A stretch of 60,561 bases of DNA from an uncultured Chlorobiaceae bacterium (GCA_903836465.1 CAILRB010000042.1:1-60561); one strand, 5' to 3'. Shown: positions 44,782-55,440, counted from the stretch's first letter. The notes: generated by a model not told the origin, from the sequence alone. Numbers and translations: made by a program.

Positions 44782-46410
44782 TCAGGTTCCAGCCATCATA
44801 GCTTCAACATCAGCCGCAACAGTTCCTATAGGTTTGATACCAAATTTCTCGACCAGTATAGAAGCAATCGTTGGGGTAAGAAACTCTGGAAGTGTTGGTC
44901 CGAGGCGAATTCCTTTCACTCCAAGATAGAGCAAGGCAAGCAATACCGTAACAGCTTTCTGTTCGTACCAGGCAATGTCGAAAGAGATTGGCAAATCATT
45001 GATATCTTCAAGTGCAAAAACCTCCTTGAGTTTCAGGGCAATCACCGCAAGCGAATATGAGTCATTACACTGACCGGCATCGAGAACACGGGGAATACCT
45101 GCTATATCACCAAGCTCAAGCTTGTTATAGCGATACTTTGCGCACCCCGCAGTCAGGATAATGGTATCGTTTGGCAATGCCGCTGCAACATCGGTATAGT
45201 AACGCCGTGAAGCATGTCGACCATCACAACCGGCCATCACGATAAAGCGCTTGACAGCACCGGACTTCACCGCATCCACAACCTTGTCGGCAAGCGCAAG
45301 CACCTGATTGTGCGCAAAGCCTCCGACAATCTGGCCATTTTCAAGCTCTACCGGAGATTTACAAGTTTTGGCAAGAGCAATAAGTGCGGAAAAATCTTTC
45401 TGGCCACCCTCTGGTCTGGCGGGAATATGGTTCAGTCCTGGATAACCTGCCATACCGGTAGTAAACATCCTGTTGCGATATGCTTCCCGAACCGGAACAA
45501 TACAGTTGGTTGTCATGAGAATGGGCCCATTGAAAGAGTCAAATTCCTTGTCCTGTGACCACCAGGAACCACCATAATTACCAACAAAGTGTGAATATTT
45601 CTTGAAAGCAGGATAGTAGTGCGCAGGAAGCATCTCACAGTGCGAATAGACATCAACACTTTTTCCTTCTGTCTGTTTGAGCAGATCCTCCAAATCACGC
45701 AGGTCATGACCTGAAATCAGAATACCGGGATTCTGGCCGACACCGGTTTTCACCAGGGTAATTTCGGGATGTCCATACGTTTCAGTGTTTGCCTTGTCGA
45801 GCAAGGCCATTGCCTTAACGGCAACTCCTCCAGTTTCCAGTACAAGGGCGGTCAGCTCATCCGCTGAAAGGTCTTTGGTCAGTGCAGAAAGGCCTTTGAC
45901 ATAAAAAGCATAAATATCATCATCGTGATAGCCAAGAACGGCTGCATGATCGGTATAGGCTGCAAGTCCCTTGATGCCAAAGAGCACAAGGCTTTTCAGT
46001 GAACGAAGGTCTTCGTTTTCACTGAGGCTGTCGAGCCCGACAACGAGGGCTTTCAAAAGAAAATCCTCCTTTGAACTTCCACTCCACTGAGCAGCATCAT
46101 GGAGGAGCTTGCAAGCCAGCCTTGCATTCAATTCGTCGCGCAGTGCAAGAGTTTTCAAGATCTGAACAACAATTGCATCCTCATCAAAGTTGGTATTGGT
46201 AACCGTGACAAAAAGCGACTCGCTGATAAGCTGGCCGACTTTTCTTGATACGCCCTCAGGGAGTTTTTCAGCCGAAAGCGCAAGCCCCTCAGTTGCATAG
46301 ACAAGTACATCCTGGAGTTTTGCTGTCAATTCATCCTTTCCGCACACCCCGCGCGCTCTGCATCCGGTGCCATGAATGCTCTCCTGACATTGGTTACAAG
46401 ACATTCCCAT
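44782..46410 (-). CDS. hcp: Hybrid cluster protein (hydroxylamine / NO reductase)
   Basis: 542 residues from ATG 46410. The N-terminal C-x2-C-x8-C-x5-C spacing is that of the anaerobe-type class with a [4Fe-4S] cluster. Further ligands of the hybrid [4Fe-2O-2S] cluster are visible as G-H-D-L-R-D, H-C-E-M-L-P and G-C-A-K-Y-R. Hcp reduces NO (and hydroxylamine in vitro) under anoxia. It is the last gene of the Rrf2-ferredoxin-TPR-hcp operon, 17 nt after the TPR gene. Confidence 0.95.
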
Positions 46411-46418
46411 TGTTCTAT

Positions 46419-46423
46419 CCTCC
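46419..46423 (-). promoter_or_regulatory. Shine-Dalgarno site fixing the hcp start
   Basis: On the minus strand GGAGG occupies 46423-46419 with 8 nt to the ATG at 46410. The upstream ATG at 46425 overlaps this site and is therefore unlikely to be the true start. Confidence 0.75.
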
Positions 46424-46427
46424 ATTA

Positions 46428-46847
46428 TTATAATGTTGTTTTTTTATTCGACGAGAGCTGCATCGCTATTCTTCTGTCATCAATTGCGCCTGCAGAGTCG
46501 CCTTTTTTTTCTTTCAGTAAAGCCCTGTTCAGATATGCTGTACGTAACATCCAGAGGTTTTTTGGTTTCCGTTCAATGATCACGCTGAAATCCTCAATTG
46601 CCCCATCAAGATCACCTGTTTCGATTCTTGCCATAGCACGATTGCCGTAAGCATTAATGGCTTCACGAAATCGAAGACCAAGTTGCAGAGCCATGGTATA
46701 GTCACTGAGAGCTTCCCTAAACTCACCGCAACTTGCACGATCATTTCCCCTGTTGTACCACGCCTCCGCATTTTCCGGATACTTCAGAATAATTCTGCTT
46801 ATTTCACAGGCCGTTCCGCGATATCCGCCCATCGCATCCTTCAGCAT
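46428..46847 (-). CDS. TPR-repeat protein in the hcp operon
   Basis: 139 residues with about three tetratricopeptide repeats: [18 protein letters not shown], and [10 protein letters not shown] spaced about 35-38 residues. TPRs mediate protein contacts. Its place between the ferredoxin and hcp genes suggests it scaffolds the electron-transfer partner of Hcp or an assembly factor; this is inference. No signal peptide is seen, so it is cytoplasmic. Confidence 0.82.
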
Positions 46848-46878
46848 ATTACCCTCATTACTTCAATTTTCTCTAATT

Positions 46879-47745
46879 TTAAATCCAATCCTCGGACATA
46901 ATGTCACCCTCTAAGTTGATAAGCACTTTTTTCACGGGAACCTTGCGCCGGGCATTTCGAAGCGCTTCCAAAACAATCGACATCAACCCGCCACAACAGG
47001 GAACTTCCATGATTGCAACAGTGATGGTATTGAGGCGAGCCATATCAATCATTGCCGTAAGCTTCTCAACATAAATATCCATATCGGAATCAAGTTTCGG
47101 ACAGGCAATGGCCAGACTTTTTCCGCGCATGAAAGAGCCATGGAAATCACCGACTGCAAAGGCAGTACAATCTGCAGCAAGCAGCAAATCTGAACCCTGG
47201 AAGTAAGGCGCCTGCGGTGAAACGAGATGAAGCTGAATCGGCCATTGACGCAGGGCACTCTCAAGACCCAGAGAAGGCGAAGCACGTTTGCTTCCCTTTT
47301 CATTGAATTCCATCGTCCGACTCCCCGGGCATCCTCCACCGTGGCCTACATGAGCATGAGGGACGGCAGATTTTTCTGAGCTCATATTTTTCAGAGGATT
47401 TGCAATCCCCTGCTCTTGAAGGTATTCAAGCGCCTGCTCCAGGTAAACATTCTGGGCATGATCAGCAAGATGCTGCAGGTGCGCTGCAATGACATTAGTA
47501 CCTCCTGGCACAATACTTTCATGCATCACCCGTTTTTCATCATAGGGCTCAGCCTCTCGGGTTTCAATCTTCATTGCACCGGTTGGACAATAACCAAGAC
47601 AGGCTCCAAGTCCGTCGCAAAACAAATCACTTATCAAACGGGCCTTTCCATCAATAACCTGCAATGCGCCTTCGGGACATCCTGGAATACAGTCACCGCA
47701 GCCGGTACACTTATTCTCATCTATTGTAATAATCTCTCGTTTCAT
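46879..47745 (-). CDS. Ferredoxin-domain protein, probable Hcp electron donor
   Basis: 288 residues. The N-terminal 2x[4Fe-4S] ferredoxin (residues about 5-60) has C-T-G-C-G-D-C-I-P-G-C-P and a second, variant cluster segment C-D-G-L-G-A-C-L-G-Y-C-P. The C-terminal domain has H-V-G-H-G-G-G-C-P-G-S and E-V-P-C-C-G-G-L, a Cys-rich pattern common in proteins encoded next to hcp. A GAGGGG Shine-Dalgarno precedes it. It is 6 nt after the Rrf2 gene stop and 31 nt before the TPR gene. Confidence 0.88.
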   Translation of the reverse strand: MKREIITIDENKCTGCGDCIPGCPEGALQVIDGKARLISDLFCDGLGACLGYCPTGAMKIETREAEPYDEKRVMHESIVPGGTNVIAAHLQHLADHAQNVYLEQALEYLQEQGIANPLKNMSSEKSAVPHAHVGHGGGCPGSRTMEFNEKGSKRASPSLGLESALRQWPIQLHLVSPQAPYFQGSDLLLAADCTAFAVGDFHGSFMRGKSLAIACPKLDSDMDIYVEKLTAMIDMARLNTITVAIMEVPCCGGLMSIVLEALRNARRKVPVKKVLINLEGDIMSEDWI

Positions 47746-47751
47746 CGTTCA

Positions 47752-48216
47752 TTACCCCTCTTGTAATGTTTTGTCCTCTTTCTTCAGCGCTGACATCATA
47801 TTACTTCCTGCATTGAGCTTCCGAAGAAGCTTCCCTATCGTTACTTGTTCAAATTCACTATTAACAACTTCCTCAATTCGCATGATTTCATGACGAAGTA
47901 CACACCGCGACCGATTTGCACAAATCTGCTTGCGAAACACACACTCCGAGACCTGCACTGCCCCCTGAAATATTTCAATCAACTGCCTGACACGAATCTC
48001 ATCAGGATCCCTTTCCAGCATAAACCCTCCTTTAACCCCCTCCTTCGACACAATCAAGTTATGACGAATCATCTCCTGGAGGAGACCGCGAAGAAACTGG
48101 TAAGGCATCTGCTGTTCAACCGCAATTGCTTTTGCAGAGAGATAGCTTCCTCTTTTTGCTCCGAGCATCAACAAGGCCCGTATTGCATAATCCGTTTTTT
48201 TTGTCAGTACTTTCAT
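47752..48216 (-). CDS. Rrf2-family Fe-S transcriptional regulator
   Basis: 154 residues with an N-terminal winged helix opening K-T-D-Y-A-I-R-A-L-L-M-L, the Rrf2 signature. Three Fe-S-ligand-like cysteines occur at C-V-F-R-K-Q-I-C-A-N-R-S-R-C. It is the first gene of the hcp operon, so an NsrR-like NO sensor is the likely role; IscR-type is the alternative. A palindrome lies 11 nt upstream of its ATG. Confidence 0.9.
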   Translation of the reverse strand: MKVLTKKTDYAIRALLMLGAKRGSYLSAKAIAVEQQMPYQFLRGLLQEMIRHNLIVSKEGVKGGFMLERDPDEIRVRQLIEIFQGAVQVSECVFRKQICANRSRCVLRHEIMRIEEVVNSEFEQVTIGKLLRKLNAGSNMMSALKKEDKTLQEG

Positions 48217-48565: not shown

Positions 48566-48874
48566 ATGCTTGCCAGGAAAATGTCACCACTTCATCCAGG
48601 AACCGTTCTGTTTGAAGAATATCTCAGCCCCATGAAGCTTAGTGAGAAAAGAGTTGCCGAAGATATCCATATTCCTGTCTGGCGTATCAACGAAATAATA
48701 GCAGGAAAGAGGTGCATTACCGCTGAAACAGCTCTGCGTCTTGGTCGATATTTCAGTACCCCACCACAGTTCTGGTTTGGGCTGCAGATGGATTATGACC
48801 TTAAAGTCGCCCTGAACAATGAAGGAGCAAATATTGAGCGGGATATCATGGCCTATGATGAGTCAAGGGCATAA
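48566..48874 (+). CDS. HigA-type XRE antitoxin, apparently orphan
   Basis: 102 residues with the HigA opening M-S-P-L-H-P-G-T-V-L-F-E-E-Y-L. The helix-turn-helix (about residues 29-64) includes V-A-E-D-I-H-I-P-V-W-R-I-N-E-I-I-A-G-K. Its C-terminal part P-P-Q-F-W-F-G-L-Q is typical of the family. HigA binds and neutralises HigB and represses the operon. The toxin normally lies just upstream, but the 314-nt spacer there has no such gene. It may now be a solitary regulator. Confidence 0.85.
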   Translation: MLARKMSPLHPGTVLFEEYLSPMKLSEKRVAEDIHIPVWRINEIIAGKRCITAETALRLGRYFSTPPQFWFGLQMDYDLKVALNNEGANIERDIMAYDESRA

Positions 48875-50375: not shown

Positions 50376-51533
50376 CTATCCTATCTTTTCCGCACCGGTA
50401 ATAATCGCTTTGACAAGCTTTTCAATGGTCGCATCATCCATCAGCACAGGAATATTCAGGCAGATACTGCTGCGCAGCATAATACCGGTTTTCGGCCAGA
50501 GCGCTTCAAGATCAGTGTCACGGTACTGGTCATACTCACCAAGAAGATGACCCCATACTCCAGCGAAGTGCCAGTCAAGTGCTTCTGGTAAAATTTTGGT
50601 ACCAAAACCATGCTCCGTCAAATGTGCTTCAAACTGCAGTGCCGCTTCACGATTCCTGACCCTGAATATCAGGGTGTCTCCCTGAGATCCAGCTTCGTCA
50701 CTGAAAGGCCTGAGAATAATATTATCGAGATGACGAATGGCATCCTTGATTTTTTTCTTGTTCTCCCTTGATGCTGAAAGAATGGTATCAATTTTTGCAA
50801 GCTGAGCCAGACCGATTGCCGCAGTCACTTCACTGAGACGTAAATTAAGCCCTTTTGATCTTCTGGGATCTTTTCCCCTCGGCAGACCTGGCAGGTGCAT
50901 GTGTCCGTGGTCGGAGAACTCGGCCGCACGATCGTAGATCTCCTTGTCATTGGTTACAATAATCCCGCCCTCACCAGTGTGGAGCGTTTTGCCTGCATCA
51001 AACGAGAACGACGCAACACTGCCAAACGTACCAAGCTTTTGTCCCTTGTACGATGCACCAAGCGCCTGTGCGGCATCTTCAATCAGTATCAGGCCATGCT
51101 TCTTGCAGAGAGCCACAAGTTCATCCATTTTCGGAGAGGCCCACATAGGAATAGCAACAACCGCTTTCGTTGCTGGAGTGATTGCCTTTTCCACTTCAAC
51201 AGGATCAAGATGATAGGTTTCATCAAGCTCAACCGGCACAGGTATTGCGCCGAGAGCACTGATGGCCTCCACTGGGGCTATAAACGTCCAGGCTGTCGTT
51301 ATGACCTCATCACCAGCTCCAATCCCGGCACCAGCAAGCGCGCAATGAATGGCTGCTGTCCCTGACGAAACGGCATGGGCATACTTGACGCCCATCCATG
51401 CTGCAAATTTTTCCTCAAACTCCCTTGCTTTATAATTACCTCCGCCGTAACGGTACAAATTGACCTTTTCCCGACTGAAAAGCTCCTGTATTTCAGCCAG
51501 TTCTTCACGACCGATGAGTTCTGCGCCCGCCAT
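50376..51533 (-). CDS. DegT/DnrJ/EryC1/StrS aminotransferase, KdnA-like
   Basis: 385 residues of PLP-dependent sugar aminotransferase type. It has S-S-G-T-A-A-I-H-C-A-L near residue 57 and the Schiff-base Lys in S-F-D-A-G-K-T-L-H-T-G-E-G-G. It contains F-S-D-H-G-H-M-H and G-L-N-L-R-L-S-E, which as I recall are shared with KdnA, the transaminase that makes 8-amino-8-deoxy-Kdo in Shewanella. It lies 18 nt downstream of the KdnB-like dehydrogenase. Substrate identity is inferred. Confidence 0.85.
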   Translation of the reverse strand: MAGAELIGREELAEIQELFSREKVNLYRYGGGNYKAREFEEKFAAWMGVKYAHAVSSGTAAIHCALAGAGIGAGDEVITTAWTFIAPVEAISALGAIPVPVELDETYHLDPVEVEKAITPATKAVVAIPMWASPKMDELVALCKKHGLILIEDAAQALGASYKGQKLGTFGSVASFSFDAGKTLHTGEGGIIVTNDKEIYDRAAEFSDHGHMHLPGLPRGKDPRRSKGLNLRLSEVTAAIGLAQLAKIDTILSASRENKKKIKDAIRHLDNIILRPFSDEAGSQGDTLIFRVRNREAALQFEAHLTEHGFGTKILPEALDWHFAGVWGHLLGEYDQYRDTDLEALWPKTGIMLRSSICLNIPVLMDDATIEKLVKAIITGAEKIG

Positions 51534-51551
51534 AATAGGTGTCCTGTTCTT

Positions 51552-52682
51552 TTAGGTTAATTGAAAAACAACATTCCGTGCCGATTCTTCGGTAAATTCA
51601 ACGGGATTGCCCGAAAATGAGCCTTTCAGGGCTTCTGAAGCATTATGCGCAAACTCTTCAGCATTACCCTTCCCATATCCATAAGGAACAAGTGTTGGAA
51701 TCTGAAGCTGCCTGTAAAGTTCATCCATCTCCTCAAGCAGTTCAGCCGTTGCCTCTTTTGGTGAGGGGGTTGAGCGCATTGGATTAAGAAGGGCATACTT
51801 TTCATAGCCATGAAGATGGTTGTAACGCATCACCTCTTTGAGAAAAATTGCTCCCGCAAGACCGTGTGGAACACGATGCTTTACTCCAAGATAGTATGCA
51901 AAGCCATTCGTCGGGCCGTCACCGGAATTCATGAGGGCCACCGTACCACAGACGCTGCCTATCGCAAGATCAAGTCGCGACTCAGCCCGATCGAGCTGAT
52001 TCTGCTGCAAAGCGTAAAAGGTACGCTGAAAACCTTCGATGGCAAAAATCCGGCTCAACGCCGTGTGCTTTACTGAACCGAAACTGTCAACACAATGAAC
52101 AAGGCTATCCATGGCTGAAGCAATAACGCTTTCAAATGGGGCTGTCATGGAAAGTTGTGGATCGATCACTGCTTTTTTGGGGAAATTTTTCCGGCTGTTA
52201 ATGCCAAGCTTGCGACCCTCAGCCTCGTCAATAAAGACCGCATTAAAGCTGACCTCAGCGCCGCTGCCCAGCAGTGACGGTACCGTAATCAGCGGCAATG
52301 GATCATTCACTCCTGAAGGAAAGCCCTTGAGGGAAAGTGCAGGAACCGCGTTGGTCATGAGAAGAGCAACTCCTTTGCCAAGGTCAAGTGTACTTCCCCC
52401 ACCTATGGCAACGATGGCATCAGGCGAGTTTGTCCTGAAAAATTCTGCCACATTTTCGAGATGAGCATACGTTGGCTCTCCGCCAAATTCATTGCAATAC
52501 AATACAGCATCTTTGTATTCTGAGGTAAGATTCTTCAGAACATCCTGAAAATAAAGACTGCCAGCAACATTGGCATCATAAATGATCCCGGGCTTCTTCA
52601 CTGACAACTGTGCAAGATGCCCATTCAGGTTCAGCGCTTCATTAACCCCGATAACAAGATCGGTGGATAAAAAGAAATTCAT
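51552..52682 (-). CDS. Iron-containing alcohol dehydrogenase, KdnB-like
   Basis: 376 residues of group III (Fe-ADH) type. The nucleotide loop is A-I-G-G-G-S-T-L-D-L-G-K-G, and metal ligands lie in M-D-S-L-V-H-C-V-D-S and H-R-V-P-H-G-L-A-G. KdnB, the Kdo 8-oxidase, is a member of this family and works with a DegT aminotransferase on the aldehyde it makes. Here it sits between such an aminotransferase and a CMP-sugar synthetase, which argues for oxidation of the terminal hydroxymethyl of a 3-deoxy-ulosonic acid. Other Fe-ADH roles remain possible. Confidence 0.85.
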   Translation of the reverse strand: MNFFLSTDLVIGVNEALNLNGHLAQLSVKKPGIIYDANVAGSLYFQDVLKNLTSEYKDAVLYCNEFGGEPTYAHLENVAEFFRTNSPDAIVAIGGGSTLDLGKGVALLMTNAVPALSLKGFPSGVNDPLPLITVPSLLGSGAEVSFNAVFIDEAEGRKLGINSRKNFPKKAVIDPQLSMTAPFESVIASAMDSLVHCVDSFGSVKHTALSRIFAIEGFQRTFYALQQNQLDRAESRLDLAIGSVCGTVALMNSGDGPTNGFAYYLGVKHRVPHGLAGAIFLKEVMRYNHLHGYEKYALLNPMRSTPSPKEATAELLEEMDELYRQLQIPTLVPYGYGKGNAEEFAHNASEALKGSFSGNPVEFTEESARNVVFQLT

Positions 52683-52694
52683 AAAAACAGTAAT

Positions 52695-53408
52695 CTAAGG
52701 GTTCTGTTGGTTTGCATCCTGGAGTGCCAGGTTTTTTTTATAAAGGTAATACTCAATTAAATCTATTTCTTCGAGAGAATCAATCTCCCACGTTTGCCAA
52801 AACTCCATCTCATAAACCGAAAGTTTTTCGCCAATCCTGTTGTTGAAGGTAACAAGAGTTTCTGGCTTGAACATATAAATTGAGCCATTTTCTATAAACT
52901 GTGCAGGGCGATCCTGGCGCATACCGCGATTTCGGTAATCAAAATTGACGCTTGTCCACTTCCCGTTTCTTGATTCCCACAAGGTAAGATCGTCAGCTTT
53001 CGTTACTGAAATCAGAGAATCTGCACCTTCACGAATAAATACAGCTACCGCCCGGTCGATATCATCGGGTTTGCGCAAAGGAGATGTTGCCTGAAGAAAC
53101 ACAACCTTGTCAATCGGCATCTGGAAGTCCCGCTCGATAACTCCAATGGCATGGAGAATGGCCGATTCGGAGCTGGCCTTATCACCGGCGAGTTCAGGGG
53201 AACGCACAATTACTTCCGCACCATATTCAATGGCTATGCTGGCGATAGCCTGGTCATCGGTCGAAACAAAAACTTTATCAATGCTCGACGAGGCTAAGGC
53301 TTGCAGAACAGTCCAGGCAAGCAAGGGTTTTCTTGCTACGGGATAAATATTTTTTTCTTTCAACCCCTTTGACCCGCCTCTCGCGGGAATGATTGCTACG
53401 GTATGCAT
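52695..53408 (-). CDS. CMP-sugar synthetase (NeuA-type acylneuraminate cytidylyltransferase)
   Basis: 237 residues opening I-I-P-A-R-G-G-S-K-G-L-K-E-K-N. This CTP-binding loop is of the NeuA/acylneuraminate type rather than the I-P-A-R-Y-x-S-x-R-L-P loop of KdsB. L-Q-A-T-S-P-L-R confirms the family. It activates a 3-deoxy-2-ulosonic acid as a CMP sugar. It lies 12 nt before the dehydrogenase gene. The acceptor sugar (nonulosonate or modified Kdo) cannot be read from the sequence. Confidence 0.88.
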   Translation of the reverse strand: MHTVAIIPARGGSKGLKEKNIYPVARKPLLAWTVLQALASSSIDKVFVSTDDQAIASIAIEYGAEVIVRSPELAGDKASSESAILHAIGVIERDFQMPIDKVVFLQATSPLRKPDDIDRAVAVFIREGADSLISVTKADDLTLWESRNGKWTSVNFDYRNRGMRQDRPAQFIENGSIYMFKPETLVTFNNRIGEKLSVYEMEFWQTWEIDSLEEIDLIEYYLYKKNLALQDANQQNP

Positions 53409-53428
53409 ATAAAGAAAACAGTTTCGGT

Positions 53429-54385
53429 TCAGCCGTCAATCACCTGCCGACAAATATCAGCAATTTTTTTTGCCGCAGATTTATTCTGAAGAGGAGTCAA
53501 AGATTTTAATTGATCAGGAGGCAGTCCGCAATGAACGATCTTGTTCAGTGCAGATCCTACAAAAATTGTCGATGAAAACTGAGCAATCAGCATCCTGGAG
53601 TTAGCTATCATCTCTTCTGTTTTACCTTCACTGAACACAAGGCTGTCTGGAGCATAGCGCTCGATTTCCCTGATTGCTCTTTCAACATTTTCATTTGGAT
53701 GAAGCTTGAAAAGAAGCTGATGATCTTCCGCTATTTCAAGATACTTCTCAATATTTTTTCTGCGATTCTCATAAATAAATGTTTCACGATTGTCTGACGT
53801 GCAGACAAGCACGTAATCATGATGTTTAAAATCATTCTGAAGGTACTGCTCGCAATTATCAAAGTTTGGAATGCTGGTCACTTCGATTTTGGCAGGGCTC
53901 ACCCCTTTACGTACAAAAAGATCGCGGTATCCTTCACTGGCAACGCAAAACTTCTCATAGGCATCAGAGAGCCCTGTAGTCGCCGTACCGGCAATCCAGC
54001 GGGGCACCCAATGAAAGTTCCTGGCAAGATGGTAAAGAATCGTTTCAGGTTCTGTCATCCCTTCCTGTACCAGCACTATTTTCTTTAATCGGATATGTTT
54101 TGGTACAATAAGATCCGTACAGGTCACCACAAGATCATAAGCATGGGCAAAACCACCTGGATCAAGCTTCAAATGATGAGCACGAAGATAATCAAGAGTT
54201 CGTTCTGACCGCTTGCGTCCCATAATGGTAAACTCAAGCAACCCGATATCACTGGCTTTTCCGAGAAGACCGTCGCTGAAAAAGGGGGAAAAATACTGCT
54301 CATAATCCGTCAGCCACCCTGCAATCTGATGCATCTGGGTCGTCTGATTCATTGACCCGCAAATAAATAAAATTTTTTTCTTCAT
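53429..54385 (-). CDS. GT-B-like glycosyltransferase/capsule-type protein
   Basis: 318 residues without a membrane segment. The C-terminal half has L-L-F-K-L-H-P-N-E-N and Q-F-S-S-T-I-F-V-G-S-A-L, patterns seen in GT-B-fold capsule and teichoic-type transferases. The family is otherwise unrecognised. It is probably the transferase using the CMP sugar made by the adjacent genes. Its first 4 nt overlap the stop of the membrane-protein gene. Confidence 0.6.
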   Translation of the reverse strand: MKKKILFICGSMNQTTQMHQIAGWLTDYEQYFSPFFSDGLLGKASDIGLLEFTIMGRKRSERTLDYLRAHHLKLDPGGFAHAYDLVVTCTDLIVPKHIRLKKIVLVQEGMTEPETILYHLARNFHWVPRWIAGTATTGLSDAYEKFCVASEGYRDLFVRKGVSPAKIEVTSIPNFDNCEQYLQNDFKHHDYVLVCTSDNRETFIYENRRKNIEKYLEIAEDHQLLFKLHPNENVERAIREIERYAPDSLVFSEGKTEEMIANSRMLIAQFSSTIFVGSALNKIVHCGLPPDQLKSLTPLQNKSAAKKIADICRQVIDG

Positions 54386-55440
54386 GCCCCTCCCGTACTG
54401 ACTCCTTCAACATCACGCAGATGAACACCTGAAAAAAACATAATACCGTAACCGACCGCATACCATATAGCCTCTTTTAAACGCCTCAACAACACAAATG
54501 CGCCTCCATAAGCAAGAACATCAGGCATCCCGAGAGCCTGAAAAAATGCCAGATAACCAAGATCCTGTACACCAAGTCCCGAAGGAATAAAAAAGAATAC
54601 AGTACGAAGCATCGTAAGGGCTATATCAATGGCAAGCACTTGCAAAAATGAGATTTCAATACCCATAAGCCTTAATATAATATAACTCTCAATCGCAAGC
54701 GTGCTCCAAGCCACAAGATAGATAAACAGCACAGGAACCAGCCTTACGACAAAAGAACCTCTGTAACTTCTCAGCTCCTCATCAGTATCAAGAAATCCTG
54801 ATTCCTTTACAAGCAACCATGTTTTTACTCTCTTGAACGGAACAAGCATCAAAAGTCTATGGACATTTTGTGCTGCTTTTCCGTTGAGCAGCAGCAAAAG
54901 AAAAAACAAAAAAAGGGAAAAAACTACAAAGCCAACCATGACCATAAGATATCCAAGCCCCTCGAATCCAAGCATCCTGACAGAAACCACCTGAAGAAGC
55001 GAAAAACCTGCTATAGAACCGATAATCGTATACAGCCCCTGGGCCACACCAAGCATAAGCTTGCGAACCGCCACGCTTGCCACTCCTGAAGGAAGTGGGA
55101 TGCCTATAAACCGGTTACAGAGAAAAGGACGAAGAGGTTCACCGATCGCCACTCCCGCAGGAAGCGTCATGGAAACAGTTTCGGCAATAAACTGTATTTT
55201 CAGGAGCTTGAAAAACGGTATTGTAGTTATGCTTCTGGGAAAAACCCTTGTCCAGGCAAAAGTTTCGAGAAGATGAAGCGAAAAAAAAGGCAAAAGAATA
55301 AATAACGATGAGAAACCTATTGAGGAAATAAGTTCAAGCGATCGGAGAAGGTCGAGTTGGCTAAAAAGATAAACAATCAGGATAATGCCAAGACCGAGCC
55401 CGACATAGCCAGTCCATGAAAGACTTGATTTTTTCGTCAT
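54382..55440 (-). CDS. Flippase-like multispanning membrane protein (UPF0104/LPG-synthase TM type)
   Basis: 352 residues with about eight hydrophobic segments. It carries the UPF0104-like P-A-G-V-A-I-G-E-P-L-R and, near the C-terminus, P-S-G-L-G-V-Q-D-L-G-Y, resembling the membrane part of lysyl-phosphatidylglycerol synthases. Relatives act in lipid-linked glycan handling. It starts the five-gene sugar operon. Confidence 0.82.
   Translation of the reverse strand: MTKKSSLSWTGYVGLGLGIILIVYLFSQLDLLRSLELISSIGFSSLFILLPFFSLHLLETFAWTRVFPRSITTIPFFKLLKIQFIAETVSMTLPAGVAIGEPLRPFLCNRFIGIPLPSGVASVAVRKLMLGVAQGLYTIIGSIAGFSLLQVVSVRMLGFEGLGYLMVMVGFVVFSLFLFFLLLLLNGKAAQNVHRLLMLVPFKRVKTWLLVKESGFLDTDEELRSYRGSFVVRLVPVLFIYLVAWSTLAIESYIILRLMGIEISFLQVLAIDIALTMLRTVFFFIPSGLGVQDLGYLAFFQALGMPDVLAYGGAFVLLRRLKEAIWYAVGYGIMFFSGVHLRDVEGVSTGGA

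Follow-up and report, generated by a model that had tools for sequence, protein, structure and literature searches.

Which surface sugar is made by an operon in which a KdnA-type aminotransferase and a dehydrogenase of the Fe-ADH family stand beside a CMP-sugar synthetase of the NeuA type? The question is raised by positions 50376-55440 of the window, the whole stretch of 60,561 nucleotides of an uncultured Chlorobiaceae bacterium that was analysed. The sequence evidence suggests, with a probability of about 0.5, that the role of this operon is to synthesise a nine-carbon nonulosonic acid with an amino group at the terminal carbon, in CMP-activated form, and to attach it to the Chlorobiaceae cell surface. 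The preliminary description of the locus had placed five tightly spaced genes here, and all five were found as minus-strand open reading frames:

54382-55440, minus strand: LPG_synthase_TM protein, a polytopic membrane protein of the LPG_synthase_TM/HpnL superfamily, putatively a flippase or a partner of the glycosyltransferase (GT) in export
53429-54385, minus strand: GT-like protein, a predicted GT-B-fold glycosyltransferase whose gene has a 4-nt overlap with the upstream gene
52695-53408, minus strand: cytidylyltransferase, a predicted NeuA-type CMP-ulosonic acid synthetase
51552-52682, minus strand: Fe-ADH, a predicted Fe-ADH-family dehydrogenase with an altered metal site
50376-51533, minus strand: DegT aminotransferase, a predicted KdnA-type PLP aminotransferase

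From the flippase-like gene to the DegT gene, the intergenic gaps are -4, 20, 12, and 18 nt. The Pfam matches are DegT (PF01041, 266 bits), Fe-ADH (PF00465, 122 bits), CTP_transf_3 (87 bits), and LPG_synthase_TM (PF03706, 86.4 bits), and the GT-like protein has a weak similarity to Epimerase_2 and otherwise no family in Pfam and NCBIfam. All five genes occur in identical order in 46 of 50 related Chlorobiaceae loci, which excludes chance, and the remaining four loci carry a partial set on short contigs of 4-16 kb. This survey of co-occurrence agrees with the earlier view that the genes form one operon. In the family-wide search, a Fe-ADH match at E<=1e-20 is present in 85 of 86 genomes, although in G013, G043, and G056 it is only a paralogue of ~30% identity, and a KdnA-like protein is present in 80 of the 86 at E<=1e-60. 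No KdnA was found in four incomplete genomes (66-86% complete), in G006, where the ADH ends 10 bases from a contig end, and in G013, where neuA lies 53 bases from a contig end. Since these genomes are incomplete or the genes run into contig ends, a true absence is established in none of them, and a real loss of ADH and KdnA in G013 was rejected because of the position of neuA. The five-gene operon is essentially universal in the Chlorobiaceae, and every gap seen coincides with a contig end or belongs to an incomplete genome.

The aminotransferase provides the clearest link to a characterised enzyme. Its best solved match is 5k8b, the KdnA of Shewanella (8-amino-3,8-dideoxy-manno-octulosonate transaminase), with 284 bits, which is 123 bits ahead of the next-best, a perosamine synthetase (161 bits). 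It belongs to the DegT/DnrJ/EryC1/StrS fold family and carries the PLP lysine; the lysine block SFDAGKTLHTGEGG aligns with SFDSVKTITCGEGG of 5k8b and is present in 48 of 50 loci. In a small tree with few outgroups (ArnB and two other DegT proteins), the aminotransferases of Chlorobiaceae, Shewanella, Aliikangiella, and the Bacteroidota genome G196 form one clade with 100/99 support, and those of Chlorobiaceae and G196 are paired (91/90). A plasmid search returned no relative of KdnA at E<=1e-50. The earlier assignment as KdnA-like is borne out by the bit scores and by the clade shared with Shewanella KdnA, and the protein is accepted as a predicted KdnA-family member, its substrate being left aside. 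To our knowledge, terminal amination by a KdnA-type enzyme has so far been shown solely for Kdo, in Shewanella, where the sole characterised KdnA makes Kdo8N, and the KdnA proteins are 40-46% identical. Both points favour a rival explanation that is nevertheless somewhat unlikely: the pair would oxidise and aminate C8 of free Kdo, supplied by KdsA and a Kdo-8-P phosphatase, the NeuA-type enzyme would be a convergent CMP-Kdo8N synthetase, and the product would enter the core of the lipooligosaccharide (LOS), as in Shewanella.

The dehydrogenase had also been described as KdnB-like, a description that is valid no further than membership of the Fe-ADH superfamily. KdnB (5k8c), which is filed as FeADH3/cd08184 (PMC5125639), is the 25th entry in the list of its PDB matches with 61 bits, and the best scores are those of 1,3-propanediol and methanol dehydrogenases. 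In the Fe-ADH tree, for which the Shewanella KdnB sequences were taken from kdnA-kdnB-kdsB loci, the KdnB clade (100/100) comprises Shewanella, Aliikangiella, and a KdnB-like protein of G028, whereas the window ADH falls outside it and forms a separate branch with the ADH of G196 (99/99). Phylogeny, on which the preliminary description had made its reading depend, thus divides the pair, with the aminotransferase inside the KdnA clade and the dehydrogenase outside that of KdnB. KdnB orthology is rejected by the tree and by the metal ligands, which argues against Kdo8N. On the other side, a sister relation of the window ADH to KdnB has equivocal support in the tree (95/79), and KdnB may be its closest sampled branch, a point in favour of Kdo8N. 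A grouping with the FucO, EutG, propanediol, and methanol dehydrogenases was rejected by the AU test (p=0.005), with long branches remaining.

The metal ligands of the window ADH and its orthologues are Asp, His, Asn, and His in place of the canonical Asp, His, His, and His, and the third ligand, Asn here, is Gly in G196. Four residues past the third ligand, the canonical His is replaced by a Tyr that KdnB also has, and KdnB retains the metal-ligand His. Since the metal site is non-canonical, the dehydrogenase activity is uncertain. The loss of this ligand, common to the Chlorobiaceae loci, would suit a very improbable case in which the Fe-ADH homologue is non-catalytic or acts differently and the operon yields a plain or non-terminally aminated CMP-nonulosonic acid. 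Against it stand the Tyr in common with KdnB, the constant position of the ADH beside KdnA in the loci compared, and its place among the most conserved proteins of the operon, typically with at least 90% identity among the closest 30 genomes. The motifs AMD.LVHC and GPTNGFAYYLG...PHG are found in 48 of 49 loci, the exception being a partial sequence. The unusual metal site, together with the PDB scores and the lack of any characterised subfamily as closest relative, is also consistent with another explanation, itself improbable, in which the pair aminates some other polyol or alcohol and not a 3-deoxy-ulosonic acid, and the CMP conjugate formed by the NeuA-type enzyme is a different one; the specifically KdnA-like aminotransferase speaks against it. 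The plasmid search gave one distant ADH, in a catabolic context in Priestia. The dehydrogenase thus belongs to a distinct Fe-ADH branch found together with KdnA, and in the proposed ulosonic acid pathway it is predicted to oxidise a terminal CH2OH.

The best solved matches of the cytidylyltransferase are CMP-NeuNAc synthetases (NeuA), with 119.7 and 115 bits, compared with 31 bits for the best KdsB. In the tree, it groups with NeuA enzymes (95/95), away from KdsB and SpsF. The protein (CYTIDYLYLTRANSFERASE) passes no curated equivalog cut-off, reaching 109.4 bits with the PseF model TIGR03584 (cut-off 205.7) and 27.8 bits with the KdsB model (cut-off 155.2). As judged from its relatives, the enzyme is NeuA-type and not KdsB-type, and the same view in the preliminary description is upheld by the structure matches and the tree. 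The grouping with CMP-nonulosonate synthetases also counts against a substrate other than an ulosonic acid. Outside the window, the genome has a canonical KdsB (203.7 bits, cut-off 155.2) as well as KdsA and WaaA, and strong KdsB-family matches are found in nearly all members of the Chlorobiaceae. Ordinary Kdo activation therefore needs no NeuA-type enzyme, and NeuA-type activation despite a canonical KdsB elsewhere supports the nine-carbon reading. With regard to Kdo8N, the presence of KdsA, KdsB, and WaaA is in its favour and the NeuA-type activation is against it. Chlorobaculum tepidum, in which the structure of the outer-membrane lipid is not established, has LOS with lipid A, and Kdo was detected by DMB-HPLC (PMC12285230). 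Kdo is therefore not wholly replaced; the unmodified Kdo reported in this LOS is a further point against Kdo8N, although the two could coexist.

The preliminary description reported neither NeuB nor KdsA. This is correct for the window but not for the genome, where KdsA and a universal NeuB-type synthase lie elsewhere. A NeuB-family match (PF03102 barrel) occurs in 65 of 65 good-quality Chlorobiaceae genomes, and a conserved short NeuB (about 290-300 aa; 298 aa in G000) is carried by 94 of the 98 class genomes, with 72-76% identity outside the Chlorobiaceae. The short NeuB is without the C-terminal SAF domain, as the 298-aa protein matches TIGR03569 from position 1 to position 279 of the 329 in the model. 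In five of the five genomes read (G000, G002, G013, G029, and G086), it adjoins a HAD phosphatase whose best model is the KDN-9-phosphate phosphatase NF058599, with 142.6 bits in G000 and 159.8 in G086, both below the cut-off of 180; KdsC is the second-best model (128-130 bits). The HAD adjacent to KdsA has KdsC as its best model, with 112 bits versus 71.7 for KDN-9-phosphatase. Hence, two different phosphatases are probably encoded, one by NeuB and one by KdsA. The KdsA-adjacent KdsC is without the nucleophile Asp (FPVDG), and the NeuB-adjacent HAD may therefore also serve Kdo. The short NeuB is unlinked to the five-gene operon and, since it is also found in families without KdnA, is not operon-specific. 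That the short NeuB and KdnA were gained together as a dedicated set was rejected, as NeuB is order-wide.

The flippase-GT pair is likewise order-wide, and it co-occurs with the short NeuB across the order. The GT orthologues in families f2 and f4 are 54-60% identical, and in several of these genomes the pair is followed by an SpsF-type cytidylyltransferase. Other Chlorobiales loci of this kind (L172, L173, and L175) share the orthologous pair and the syntenic place with the Chlorobiaceae, but have the SpsF-type synthetase where the Chlorobiaceae have NeuA-ADH-KdnA behind the pair. G086 has flippase-GT, SpsF, split transketolase genes, and an aminotransferase resembling glutamate-1-semialdehyde aminomutase, and a divergent AMP-ligase gene (57% identity) is kept next to its locus. 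In G092, SpsF lies apart from the pair. G088, the single f3 genome, keeps KdsB and is missing both the GT and the short NeuB. Neither a NeuA- nor an SpsF-type gene was found in G088, whose sole CTP_transf match besides KdsB is a weak one (36 bits). The GT is therefore tied to the NeuB-type pathway and not to Kdo (an absence with n=1), contrary to Kdo8N.

G196, which is a distant Bacteroidota genome, is the only one outside the Chlorobiaceae with a close relative of the ADH (about 33-34% identity, E 1e-62), 394 Bacteroidota genomes having been sampled. Its nonulosonic acid cluster (L139) resembles the Chlorobiaceae operon in keeping KdnA (40% identity), ADH (33%), and NeuA-type genes together. 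It differs in that these genes are embedded with NeuB (487.7 bits), NeuC (367.5), and NeuD (199.8), all above the NCBIfam cut-offs, and a CBS nucleotidyltransferase, and no adjoining GT/flippase of the Chlorobiaceae type was found. The cluster thus provides a direct context for the terminal amination of a nonulosonic acid, and the location of the trio within it argues against both Kdo8N and a non-ulosonic substrate.

In 46 of 46 full loci, and also in several f2 and f4 genomes, the LPG_synthase_TM gene lies ahead of the GT gene, and its product scores 85.7 bits with the HpnL model TIGR03476, below the cut-off of 195.65. No PDB sequence matched the GT in a profile search. The AlphaFold model of the GT, for which 37 sequences were used, has low confidence (pLDDT 60.8, pTM 0.60) and aligns over its full length with GT-B enzymes (Z about 12-12.7, rmsd 4.0, 247 aligned). 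The fold search gave generic GT-B matches that name no donor, and CMP-sialyltransferases and KpsC are absent among the matches listed. The blocks QEGMT.PE and KLHPNE are invariant, and QEGM and KLHPNE may resemble bacterial sialyltransferase motifs. The protein is predicted to be a GT-B glycosyltransferase using a CMP-ulosonic acid.

A terminal-amino ulosonic acid pathway, as first suggested in the preliminary description, has good support from the sequence and remains the best reading of the KdnA relationship, the NeuA-type enzyme, and the conserved operon. Of the two products that it had left side by side, Kdo or a nine-carbon acid, the genomic context favours the latter, and Kdo8N is retained as a rival. 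The nine-carbon acid is preferred because of the NeuB/HAD pair, the co-distribution of the flippase-GT pair with the short NeuB, and the NeuB-NeuC-NeuD context in G196. In the proposed pathway, the short NeuB-type synthase would join PEP with a hexose phosphate, and the adjoining KDN-9-phosphatase-like HAD would remove the phosphate to free the terminal CH2OH. The Fe-ADH would convert the terminal carbon to an aldehyde, the KdnA-type enzyme would aminate it, and the NeuA-type enzyme would produce the CMP-sugar. Finally, the GT-B protein would transfer the sugar, most likely to lipooligosaccharide, and the LPG_synthase_TM protein would aid export or presentation. The favoured product would be a 9-amino-3,9-dideoxy-nonulosonic acid (9-amino-KDN type). 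Several observations lie on the other side of the nine-carbon reading: Kdo is the substrate of the sole KdnA yet characterised, the HAD falls below the KDN-9-phosphatase cut-off and may also serve Kdo, the short NeuB is neither linked nor specific to the operon, the ADH metal site is non-canonical, and the co-absence of GT and NeuB is seen once. A fuller version, tentative and at slightly less than even odds, is that the Chlorobiaceae carry a near-universal surface sugar of the 9-amino-3,9-dideoxy-KDN type, made by a KdnA-type enzyme, a new Fe-ADH branch, and a NeuA-type enzyme recruited into an older flippase-GT locus.

Bacteroides thetaiotaomicron has a KDN pathway consisting of KDN-9-P synthase, KDN-9-P phosphatase, and CMP-KDN synthetase. 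The Chlorobiaceae resemble it in having a NeuB-type synthase paired with a KDN-9-phosphatase-like HAD and a NeuA-type CMP synthetase in the genome. In contrast, their synthase and phosphatase are unlinked to the CMP synthetase, their short NeuB cannot accommodate a C-terminal SAF domain, and a dehydrogenase and KdnA are added. With the Shewanella kdnA-kdnB-kdsB locus (Kdo8N; PDB 5k8b, 5k8c), the operon has in common a KdnA-type aminotransferase (40-46% identity) with an Fe-ADH and a CMP-ulosonate synthetase as neighbours, whereas the gene order is reversed, the Fe-ADH is of another branch, the synthetase is of the NeuA and not the KdsB type, GT and flippase-like genes are linked, and KdsB is kept elsewhere. 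Kdo8N is known from Shewanella, and an 8-amino nonulosonic acid, in which the amine is not at the terminal carbon, was reported in Flexibacter maritimus (PMC3210612). Neither a natural 9-amino nonulosonic acid nor work on nonulosonic acids in Chlorobi was found in the literature searched.

Very little is known about the outer-membrane sugars of green sulfur bacteria. If the nine-carbon reading is true, the operon would be a new variant of the KdnA pathway that is widespread in one bacterial family, and KdnA chemistry would extend from Kdo to nonulosonic acids. That the same glycosyltransferase is followed by one CMP-sugar synthetase in place of another would also be a clear example of a rewired pathway. 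The amino-ulosonic acid would add positive charge to the surface glycan, and it would give a concrete mass to seek in a cultured model strain by mass spectrometry.

In the window Fe-ADH (51552-52682, minus strand), the third metal-ligand position, usually His, is occupied by Asn, and the Fe-ADH of a distant Bacteroidota genome (G196) has Gly at the same position. The window protein is possibly a dehydrogenase whose metal site is unusual or absent. A true KdnB-clade Fe-ADH, sharing 39-41% identity with Shewanella KdnB, is present in another Chlorobium genome (G028):

L201:9729-10841, minus strand, KdnB-clade Fe-ADH

NeuB, SpsF and NeuA-type genes share the variable cluster of this Fe-ADH, and no DegT gene was seen among its listed ORFs.

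The genome G000 carries the following gene on its contig C28:

L060:2250-2867, plus strand, KdsC-like gene immediately 3' of KdsA

The HAD nucleophile Asp is absent from this gene because FPVDG replaces the expected FD.DG, and its product is perhaps inactive or serves a new function.

Two further features of the window lie outside the operon:

44782-48216, minus strand, row of hybrid-cluster protein-, ferredoxin-like protein- and Rrf2-type regulator-like genes
48566-48874, plus strand, HigA-like antitoxin ORF (102 aa) flanked by two minus-strand genes

The row, recognized by eye, looks like the arrangement of nitrosative-stress modules.

The flippase-GT locus varies in other genomes:

L072:5803-7129 (same interval in L087), insert of ~1.3 kb separating gt from neuA
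L172:6796-11050, region behind the flippase-GT pair in G086, from another Chlorobiales family

The L072 insert holds two opposite-strand ORFs; by eye, one resembles a DUF1778-type antitoxin and the other a GNAT toxin. In G086, the pair is the same as in the window operon, and the genes that follow it encode an SpsF-type cytidylyltransferase, a split transketolase, and an aminotransferase resembling glutamate-1-semialdehyde aminomutase. This gene set is perhaps an alternative route to an amino-ulosonic acid.
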